The notes under the pieces were generated by a model. That model ran no database searches. It worked only from the letters and a program-made list of their open reading frames with translations, and was not told the DNA's origin. Position numbers and translations under genes: made by a program. DNA of 64,000 nucleotides from Natronorubrum halophilum. Its GTDB lineage: Archaea; Halobacteriota; Halobacteria; Halobacteriales; Natrialbaceae. The stretch spans positions 620,001 to 684,000 of the forward strand of contig NZ_QQTY01000004.1 in NCBI RefSeq assembly GCF_003670115.1, given 5' to 3'. Positions within the stretch are counted from its first letter, which is position 1, and the number at the start of each line of letters is the position of its first letter. Positions 13,101-15,859 of the stretch are shown here, one piece after another.

Positions 13101-13406
13101 TTACTCTTCGAGGTGTTCGATCCCTTTCTTCGAGACGTTCGCCTCCGTAATTTCGCTCGGCATCCAGTCGGGCTTGTCGTCGGGCGCAGTCTCTTCCCAC
13201 GCCCAGCCGTCGTAGATGTGAACCTTGTCGGTGCCTTTCTCCCGCAGTTTGAGTTCGACGCGGTCTGCCTCGTCTTCACTCGAACCCGGCTCGAGTCGTC
13301 GGGCCGCCTTGAGGGCAGCCTGACGGGGTGTGTTTCCCGAAAAGACGCTCGATTCGTCGCCCGACTCGCGCAGTGCAAAGTTTCGTTTACCGTCTTCGCG
13401 TACCAT
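13101..13406 (-). CDS. non-histone chromosomal protein MC1
   Basis: 101-residue DNA-bending chromatin protein of methanogens and haloarchaea; it binds as a monomer and sharply bends DNA. Recognised by NFALRESGDESSVFSGNTPRQAALKA early, the aromatic HIYDGWAWEE block, and the P-x-x-x-P loop (KPDWMPSEI). The N-terminal start MVREDGKRNF is the family standard. A TATA-like CTTTATG on the minus strand (13444-13450) lies about 40 bp before the ATG, giving a short leader. Divergent from the AbrB-like gene with about 240 bp between starts. Confidence 0.93.
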   Translation of the reverse strand: MVREDGKRNFALRESGDESSVFSGNTPRQAALKAARRLEPGSSEDEADRVELKLREKGTDKVHIYDGWAWEETAPDDKPDWMPSEITEANVSKKGIEHLEE

Positions 13407-13646: not shown

Positions 13647-13844
13647 ATGGTACGGAAAAAGAAGCTGAGTCCAAGCGGTGCCAAAGATGAAGACGGCAAC
13701 TACCACAACGTTCACCTCAACCTCCACGAGGATGAACTCGCAGTCGCGGGCATGGATATCGGCGACGAGGTCTTCGTTCGGGTCCGGGACGGAAAGATCA
13801 TTATCCAGAAAGCCGACGAAGAAGAGGTCGAACACGAGTTTTAA
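13647..13844 (+). CDS. AbrB/SpoVT-like swapped-hairpin protein
   Basis: 65 residues starting MVRKKKLSPSG. The core VHLNLHEDELAVAGMDIGDEVFVRV followed by GKIIIQKA is a single beta-strand-rich SpoVT/AbrB motif (the GD-V-V turn). Such proteins dimerise as DNA-binding transcription factors or antitoxins. No toxin gene is adjacent, so a small stand-alone regulator is more likely. Short leader promoter at 13605. Confidence 0.75.
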   Translation: MVRKKKLSPSGAKDEDGNYHNVHLNLHEDELAVAGMDIGDEVFVRVRDGKIIIQKADEEEVEHEF

Positions 13845-14084: not shown

Positions 14085-14100
14085 TTTAGGTCAACCTAAA
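14085..14100. promoter_or_regulatory. iron box 1 (DtxR/IdeR/SirR-type operator)
   Basis: TTTAGGTCAACCTAAA, a 16-bp near-perfect palindrome matching the half site TTAGGTT of the DtxR/IdeR operator. It lies just upstream of the TATA-like element of the downstream unit. Confidence 0.75.
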
Positions 14101-14101
14101 T

Positions 14102-14112
14102 TACTTATACTT
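14102..14112 (+). promoter_or_regulatory. TATA-like element between two iron boxes
   Basis: TACTTATACTT, centred about 29 bp before ATG 14136, is the best TATA candidate. The position implies a leaderless transcript whose start coincides with iron box 2. Confidence 0.5.
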
Positions 14113-14119
14113 CCTATTC

Positions 14120-14135
14120 TTTAGGTTAGCCTAAA
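14120..14135. promoter_or_regulatory. iron box 2 (DtxR/IdeR/SirR-type operator) abutting the start codon
   Basis: TTTAGGTTAGCCTAAA, again a near-perfect 16-bp palindrome, ending on the base before the ATG at 14136. Its centre is 35 bp from that of box 1. A metal-bound repressor here would cover the transcription start. Confidence 0.78.
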
Positions 14136-15056
14136 ATGGTTGGCGCGACACTCGGCGACATCAGACGGTATATCGAGTCGCTCGCGAGCGATTCGGGGTC
14201 GTACTATCTCGTCTGCGGGCGAACCGGCGAACACCCGGTTCCCGCCGCGGGACTGGCCTTCGAGTGCCGTTCGACGGCTCGAGCGGCCGCACGGGCGACC
14301 GAACAGTATCGAGCGGCGCTCCGCCGATACGATCCCCGCCTTCCCTTCTACGACGTGATCGTCTGCCATCACATCGCGAACGAGGCGACGACCGAGGACC
14401 GAGAACAACCGGCGTCTCCGGTCGCCGACGCGCGCGATGACCCGGCGACCGCGGCGCACGCGTCCGACGACCAGACGGTGATCAACTTCTGTCACACCGT
14501 CGCCGGTGCCGTCTTCGAGACAGTCGCCGAGTCGCCCCACGACGGCCTCGAGGACGCGATCATGGACACCTATTTCGAGGTCGCCGAAACGATCGAGGGG
14601 CCGGACGAACTCTGTCTCCGCCTGCTCGAGAGTATGGCGACCGAGATCGATACCCGACTCGAGGCCGAGGAGCAACTCGACGTCCTCCTGGCGGCCGCTC
14701 AGCGGCTTCCGTCGCAGCCGTCGGGTGGCGATCCCCTCGAGTCGGTGTTATCCGAACTGGAGTCCGTCGCGCTGTTGGGGACGTACACGGTCGACTCTCG
14801 CTCGACCGATTCGGCGACCGGAACGCGGTCGTGGACCGTGACGCTCGACGAGTACGCGCTCGGCCGCTCGGGGGAGCGCGTCGTGACCCTGCCGATCGTC
14901 CTCGAACTGTTCCGCCGGTTCCCGACCCGGGAACTCTCCCTCGTTGCAGCCGATTCGCCGGCCACCCGCTCGACGTCGTGGCGAATGACGGTCACGACTG
15001 CGCCAACCGACAGTCCGGACGGGCTGGTACGCGTTTCCGAACTCTCCCACCCATGA
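14136..15056 (+). CDS. haloarchaeal protein of unknown function, iron-box controlled
   Basis: 306 residues, soluble, acidic. Begins MVGATLGDIRRYIESLAS and contains YYLVCGRTGEHPVPAAGL and a Cys-rich-free core; no enzyme motif recognised (resembles DUF7551, recalled only). First gene of a two-gene unit: its TGA (15054-15056) overlaps the ATG of the next gene at 15053. Two DtxR-type palindromes bracket its TATA element, so it is predicted to be derepressed when iron or manganese is scarce. The Idr/SirR regulons of haloarchaea hold siderophore and iron-uptake genes, but this protein has no transporter features. Confidence 0.75.
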   Translation: MVGATLGDIRRYIESLASDSGSYYLVCGRTGEHPVPAAGLAFECRSTARAAARATEQYRAALRRYDPRLPFYDVIVCHHIANEATTEDREQPASPVADARDDPATAAHASDDQTVINFCHTVAGAVFETVAESPHDGLEDAIMDTYFEVAETIEGPDELCLRLLESMATEIDTRLEAEEQLDVLLAAAQRLPSQPSGGDPLESVLSELESVALLGTYTVDSRSTDSATGTRSWTVTLDEYALGRSGERVVTLPIVLELFRRFPTRELSLVAADSPATRSTSWRMTVTTAPTDSPDGLVRVSELSHP

Positions 15057-15859
15057 GCATCACGACCCACGTCCACGAGGCCCTCGAGCGTGTCGACACG
15101 GAGCGAGAGGAGGTTGCCGAGACGGTGACCGCCGTCGACAGGTTCGCGCGACGAGTCGATGAGATCCGGCCAGTATCGCCGATCAAACCGACGGGAGGCG
15201 GCTACGCTGCCGATGGAGGCGTAGTCGCCGCGGCGACGCGGTCTCGGCCCCGCCCACCGACGAATCGTTGCCAGGACGTCCGTGAGCTGTTCGCCGAGAC
15301 GATCTACGCCACCAGTACCGACGCCGATGTCGATCGCGCCGACTCGCTGCAGACGACGATCAGCGACGAACTCGGGCAGGAGATCGCGCTCCTCCTGTCC
15401 CCGGAGACCGACCGCCAGTTCACCCCCGACGTGAAAGGCGCTGTGCTCACCGTGACGCGAAAGCGACGCGCCGAACTGAAGGCGATAGACGAGGCGCTGT
15501 CGACGGAAGCCGACTCCCTTCGCTCGGCCGTGACCGCCCTCGAGACGGTTACGGACTGGCTCACCCGGGTCAACGAGATTCCGCTGTCGGAACTCGGATT
15601 CGACGACCTGCGATCGCGACACGAGGCCCTCTCGAGCCATCGCGATCGGTGTCGGCAAGCGCTGCAGGACCGTCAGGCGGTCCTGCACGGAACGACGAAG
15701 CACCACGCCGCTGCCGGCGTTCCCCACCAGTCGCTCGTCTCGTCGCTCTACCGGCCCTTCCCGACGGCATACCCGGTTGTGGTGACGTTGTGTCGACTCG
15801 AGGAGTGCTGTGCGGACTGTCAGCGAACCGTTCGGGACCATCTTACTCGACGCGCCTGA
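15053..15859 (+). CDS. haloarchaeal DUF7260-like protein
   Basis: 268 residues, mostly helical. N-terminal THVHEALERVDTEREEVAETV and a middle KRRAELKAIDEAL / RHEALSSHRDRCRQALQDRQ pattern fit a long helical bundle of the haloarchaeal DUF7260 type (recalled, not searched). Four Cys occur in the last 25 residues (TLCRLEECCADCQR), an unusual concentration for a haloarchaeal protein and possibly a metal site. Translation-coupled to the upstream gene through an ATGA overlap, hence under the same iron boxes. Confidence 0.72.
   Translation: MSITTHVHEALERVDTEREEVAETVTAVDRFARRVDEIRPVSPIKPTGGGYAADGGVVAAATRSRPRPPTNRCQDVRELFAETIYATSTDADVDRADSLQTTISDELGQEIALLLSPETDRQFTPDVKGAVLTVTRKRRAELKAIDEALSTEADSLRSAVTALETVTDWLTRVNEIPLSELGFDDLRSRHEALSSHRDRCRQALQDRQAVLHGTTKHHAAAGVPHQSLVSSLYRPFPTAYPVVVTLCRLEECCADCQRTVRDHLTRRA

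Follow-up and report, generated by a model that had tools for sequence, protein, structure and literature searches.

A twin-box promoter places an uncharacterised gene pair of Natronorubrum halophilum in a predicted haloarchaeal DtxR-type iron regulon

We propose that two adjoining genes of Natronorubrum halophilum, here called gene A and gene B, form an operon, read as a leaderless transcript, that belongs to the DtxR-type iron regulon of haloarchaea, and that their products take part in the use of siderophore iron, a reading to which, taken as a whole, we assign a probability of about 60%. Judged from the promoters of the pair and its relatives, membership of the gene A-B unit in the regulon is highly probable; that the two proteins handle siderophore iron in the cytoplasm after its uptake is a tentative suggestion. 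The pair lies in the window, by which we mean the whole stretch of 64,000 nucleotides that was analysed (G000:C4:620001-684000), in a genome of 4.67 Mb.

Results

The promoter of gene A carries an upstream iron box, TTTAGGTCAACCTAAA, at 14085..14100 and a downstream iron box, TTTAGGTTAGCCTAAA, at 14120..14135, neither of them assigned to a strand. The 14-bp cores of the boxes (14086-14099 and 14121-14134) are both TTAGGN4CCTAA palindromes, and the letters of the window bear out the two positions and the distance of 35 bp between centres that the original prediction had given. The TATA-like sequence TTACTTATA, part of a putative plus-strand promoter element (TTACTTATAC, 14101..14110), lies between the two boxes about 30 bp 5' of the ATG of gene A. 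The upstream box, recognised by pattern match and conservation, is thus 5' of the TATA-like element, and the downstream box covers the expected transcription start and touches the ATG at 14136, which directly follows the extended second palindrome; the predicted arrangement of a TATA-like element between the boxes and a second box abutting the start codon therefore stands. Allowing at most one mismatch, TTAGGTNNNCCTAA gives four strand-matches (two sites) in the window versus 0.12 expected, none of 100 shuffled versions of the window gave four such matches, and 14085-14135 is the sole exact box pair in the window. The genes upstream of the pair encode an MC1 chromosomal protein (13101-13403, minus strand) and a small protein that weakly resembles AbrB/MazE (13647-13841, plus strand).

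The boxes accompany gene A in its relatives. Comparing 73 gene A loci, which include one duplicate and hence represent 72 distinct loci, we found an exact box at most 320 bp from gene A in 42 of the 73 and a box pair spaced 34-37 bp in 32, with exactly 36 bp in 24 of these pairs. In the same stretches, the matches to seven control palindromes made by permutation numbered 0, 0, 0, 0, 0, 0 and 1. A pair with one mismatch in Halosimplex (L049) raises the loci with a box in gene A's own promoter to 43. The 30 loci without a proximal box comprise the duplicate, 26 with an exact box further upstream, in most cases where an operon encoding binding proteins and FAD oxidoreductases begins, one with only 1-mismatch boxes and two that could not be judged. 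Altogether 69 of the 72 distinct loci have a box (43 in the gene's own promoter and 26 further upstream), some of them in closely related genomes, so that the 69 are not 69 independent events. Loss of the boxes from relatives that keep the genes, which the original prediction had named as evidence against itself, was not seen.

Aligned, these promoters share a common layout of box, BRE/TATA and box. By this predicted layout gene A is leaderless in the type found in the window, and elsewhere 98-154 nt separate the beginning of the last box from the start codon. The leadered twin-box version, which in other genera lies about 100-150 nt from gene A (for example L019, L023, L042, L045 and L111), coexists with the leaderless one. 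Among relatives whose leaders measure about 85-140 nt we found no conserved ORF that would encode an upstream peptide between the second box and gene A. The promoter grammar of box, TATA and box at 34-37 bp could be used to find the remaining members of the regulon.

Across the genome, 17 sites match TTAGGN4CCTAA exactly, versus one for the reversed control pattern. Ten of them form five pairs spaced 34-36 bp, and at a sixth locus, C3:265068, an exact box is paired, at 36 bp, with a site that has one mismatch. Sites with one mismatch are at or below background (29 genome-wide versus 59 for the control); lone 1-mismatch boxes were for this reason dropped as evidence, and weight was given only to exact sites or to a site with one mismatch that lies 34-37 bp away from an exact one. 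Behind the boxes stand a siderophore synthesis operon (an aminotransferase, two IucA/IucC proteins and a Lys/Orn monooxygenase, by gene reading and Pfam) and, by Pfam, uptake genes for several Peripla_BP_2 lipoproteins with NAD(P)/FAD oxidoreductase, FecCD permeases and ABC ATPases, as well as genes for an amphi-Trp protein and a DtxR-family repressor. Since genes for siderophore synthesis, uptake and DtxR lie behind the boxes, the genome-wide box set is, as far as sequence can tell, an iron regulon. The prediction that these palindromes are DtxR/IdeR-like iron boxes is thus supported both by the genome-wide scan, which places them before siderophore and DtxR genes, and by their conservation across haloarchaeal families. 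The genome encodes three strong DtxR-family candidates (C5:281613, C2:830940 and C2:54143). A HEAT-repeat gene was rejected as a target, as the boxes at C3:278095 and C3:278130 lie at its 3' end, before a permease gene, which makes it a neighbour only. An exact single box also precedes a gene for a SAM-methyltransferase-like protein of 260 aa (G000:C4:511664; L119:3665-4498).

Gene A (14136..15056, plus strand) encodes a protein of 306 aa consisting of DUF7552 (residues 5-78, Pfam E 1.4e-34, 118.6 bits versus a gathering cut-off of 27) and DUF7551 (residues 116-301, E 1.6e-69, 234.2 versus 52.6 bits), and overlaps in ATGA with gene B (15053..15859, plus strand), which encodes a DUF7260 protein of 268 aa (E 1e-65, 222 versus 27 bits). 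As these are all uncharacterised families, the view that neither protein has a recognised function holds. None of the papers in the literature collection searched names DUF7552, DUF7551 or DUF7260, a search for PDB relatives by sequence returned none that was convincing, and we found in A and B no catalytic motif or solved homologue indicating reductase or carrier activity. All of 49 homologues of gene A have C27, C119 and C160, and 98% have H120. The four cysteines noted near the end of gene B are present, at positions 247, 252, 253 and 256, but only C253 (93%) and C256 (98%), which form a CxxC near the C terminus, are conserved among 44 homologues. Hydropathy revealed no membrane segments in either protein, and both are probably cytoplasmic.

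The best PDB match of an AlphaFold2 model of gene A, built from six sequences (pLDDT 70.7, pTM 0.58), was H-NOX (Foldseek, E 1.4e-3, probability 1.00), with BcsD and TRAPP Bet3 ranking high as well. The VIA list contained H-NOX, the PoxR/MopR sensory domains, BcsD, TRAPP subunits and MJ1460 at Z of about 6-7, values below the level of 8 that would stand out and similar to those of unrelated designed proteins. The H-NOX chain 3tfg_B aligns with the DUF7551 model over its whole length (residues 118-289, 152 aligned, Z 6.6, rmsd 4.8). H-NOX, V4R and TRAPP domains belong to one fold class, and its members (6mx5, 2o09; PoxR/MopR; BcsD; Bet3) fill much of the DUF7551 match list; the model suggests that DUF7551 may be built in the same way. 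Sequence comparison gave no support for homology to H-NOX or V4R: no HNOB or V4R Pfam match was found in 40 DUF7551 family members, no DUF7551 profile match in 13 HNOB proteins, and hhalign of DUF7551 against H-NOX/V4R gave a probability below 1%. Unlike canonical H-NOX, in which His102 and Y132/S134/R136 are conserved (HNOB alignment A3), DUF7551 has neither a conserved proximal-ligand His nor the YxSxR motif, and therefore is not a canonical haem H-NOX. The model of DUF7552 alone (pLDDT 74) has the order alpha-beta-beta-alpha-beta, and no fold match was found for it (no Foldseek E below 2, VIA best Z 5.2).

DUF7552 is present in 83 of the 125 genomes of the family, DUF7551 in 218 of the 391 Halobacteria genomes sampled and in 53 of 86 genera, and no relatives were found in viral contigs. 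Hfx. volcanii has matches to all three families, DUF7552, DUF7551 and DUF7260. Gene A often follows genes for a siderophore-binding lipoprotein and an FAD oxidoreductase: the row in Halobellus limi is iron permease, ATPase, two binding proteins, FAD protein, A and B, that in Halosolutus is two binding proteins, FAD oxidoreductase and A, and in Halobacterium hubeiense A-B is divergent from the iron cluster. DUF7260 is sometimes missing beside A (L048, L050), and the A-B pair is therefore not obligatory. Of 37 genomes with schizokinen-type IucC, 34 have DUF7552, versus 49 of the 88 without it (Fisher p 6e-5, phylogeny ignored), and yet A is present in many genomes that lack a schizokinen cluster and is therefore not tied to schizokinen.

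DUF7552 is also found as a protein of about 170 aa directly behind binding-protein genes (L078, L086, L103, L104). A second DUF7552 lineage of about 170-190 aa (L086:3943-4476, L103, L104, L083, L105, L101) has the conserved C-terminal block RRxNGxPxxxxTVT...DEWLRxEN.P.VH and stands mostly behind siderophore-binding protein genes. In one relative (G068:C4:494205-494423) a DUF7552 match contains an in-frame TAG stop, which suggests that this gene has decayed.

Discussion

Based on the boxes and the genes behind them, we propose that in iron-rich cells a DtxR-family repressor would sit on both boxes, as expected from DtxR biology, and that with one box 5' of the TATA element and the other over the transcription start it could block TBP/TFB or the polymerase. 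Upon iron starvation the repressor would leave, and A and B would be made alongside the proteins of siderophore synthesis and uptake; it is very likely, on this inferred direction of regulation, that starvation switches the pair on. The two proteins might then act after import, in the reductive release or hand-over of iron, together with the FAD-dependent oxidoreductase that is often encoded beside them. We favour such a role because A sits behind binding-protein and FAD-oxidoreductase genes and because A and B are probably cytoplasmic.

The main rival is a role of gene A beside the DtxR repressor as its regulatory partner, in which DUF7552, alone or with DUF7551, would sense iron, a siderophore or some similar ligand and modulate the repressor. 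Two congeners (L071, L076) encode DUF7552 as a protein of 89-91 aa directly before DtxR, with twin boxes in front, and the DtxR gene under twin boxes in the present genome (G000:C2:54143-54516; L112:2922-3517) likewise follows DUF7552, here as a frameshifted remnant of the gene that is intact in the congeners. In six further loci (L049, L095, L200, L207, L210, L213) a DtxR gene stands after A or A-B, and the folds that the DUF7551 model resembles are frequent in sensors. However, DtxR is absent from the neighbourhood of most A-B loci, the other DUF7552 lineage lies behind siderophore-binding protein genes instead, and the fold match is without sequence support. Moreover, where DUF7552 has decayed in this genome DtxR and its boxes are kept, indicating that DtxR is independent of DUF7552 in cis. 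Taken together, these observations make a co-regulator unlikely. It is equally speculative that DUF7551 is a haem-free H-NOX/V4R-like ligand domain which, with DUF7552, binds iron or a ferric siderophore by way of the conserved Cys/His and then sets the iron free or signals its presence to DtxR; if true, DUF7551-DUF7552 would be a new family of archaeal proteins that handle or sense iron.

Somewhat less likely still is a place for A and B, like that of Dps, in a branch of the response that spares iron or counters oxidative stress, rather than in siderophore iron use. Dps genes do occur beside DUF7552-DtxR loci and near boxes, one adjoining the DtxR locus of this genome and a second standing behind a 1-mismatch site, but the operon partners of A and B are mainly siderophore-binding and FAD-oxidoreductase genes.

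The original prediction had allowed for iron or manganese homeostasis, and of the two it is siderophore iron that is favoured by the siderophore genes behind exact boxes. DtxR homologues are able to respond to manganese and a ZIP-type transporter gene lies behind a 1-mismatch box (C3:101107), and yet such sites are at background and the exact boxes precede genes for siderophore synthesis and ferric-siderophore uptake, which makes MntR-like manganese operators very improbable. Chance palindromes in an AT-rich promoter can be dismissed, the single reversed-control match in the genome standing against 17 exact sites and a fixed spacing conserved across families.

The DtxR-type iron regulon is a haloarchaeal regulon type that is already described, and A and B are very probably unstudied members of it. 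DtxR-family regulators of haloarchaea include Idr1, Idr2 and SirR in Halobacterium and Idr, SirR and TroR in Haloferax volcanii. We find twin boxes before the iuc operon of Halobacterium salinarum NRC-1 (35 bp) and of Haloferax larsenii (36 bp). The iuc transcript of Hfx. volcanii is about 44-fold higher without iron, and the genes for siderophore export, import and reduction were described in that study as unknown (PMC7407949). In H. mediterranei the iuc, iron ABC and NAD(P)/FAD oxidoreductase genes drop together under denitrification, and the authors suspect the SirR repressor (PMC11218638). Leyn and Rodionov (2015) are cited as having predicted archaeal DtxR regulons (PMC11349517, PMC11218638). 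The tight, class-wide link of DUF7552, DUF7551 and DUF7260 to the iron regulon is new to us, and through conserved operators and operon partners it ties the three families to the haloarchaeal siderophore-iron path; given the presence of DUF7551 in more than half of the Halobacteria genomes sampled, its function would apply widely.

The promoter of gene A thus resembles the DtxR-family iron regulons of other haloarchaea, in which TTAGG/CCTAA palindromes likewise precede siderophore, iron ABC transport and DtxR genes. With the bacterial DtxR/IdeR iron boxes it shares TTAGGTT-like inverted half-sites and presumably metal-dependent repression. Unlike the bacterial systems, however, the control described here would act on a TATA/TBP promoter of the archaeal kind, whose TATA element stands between two separate boxes spaced 34-37 bp.
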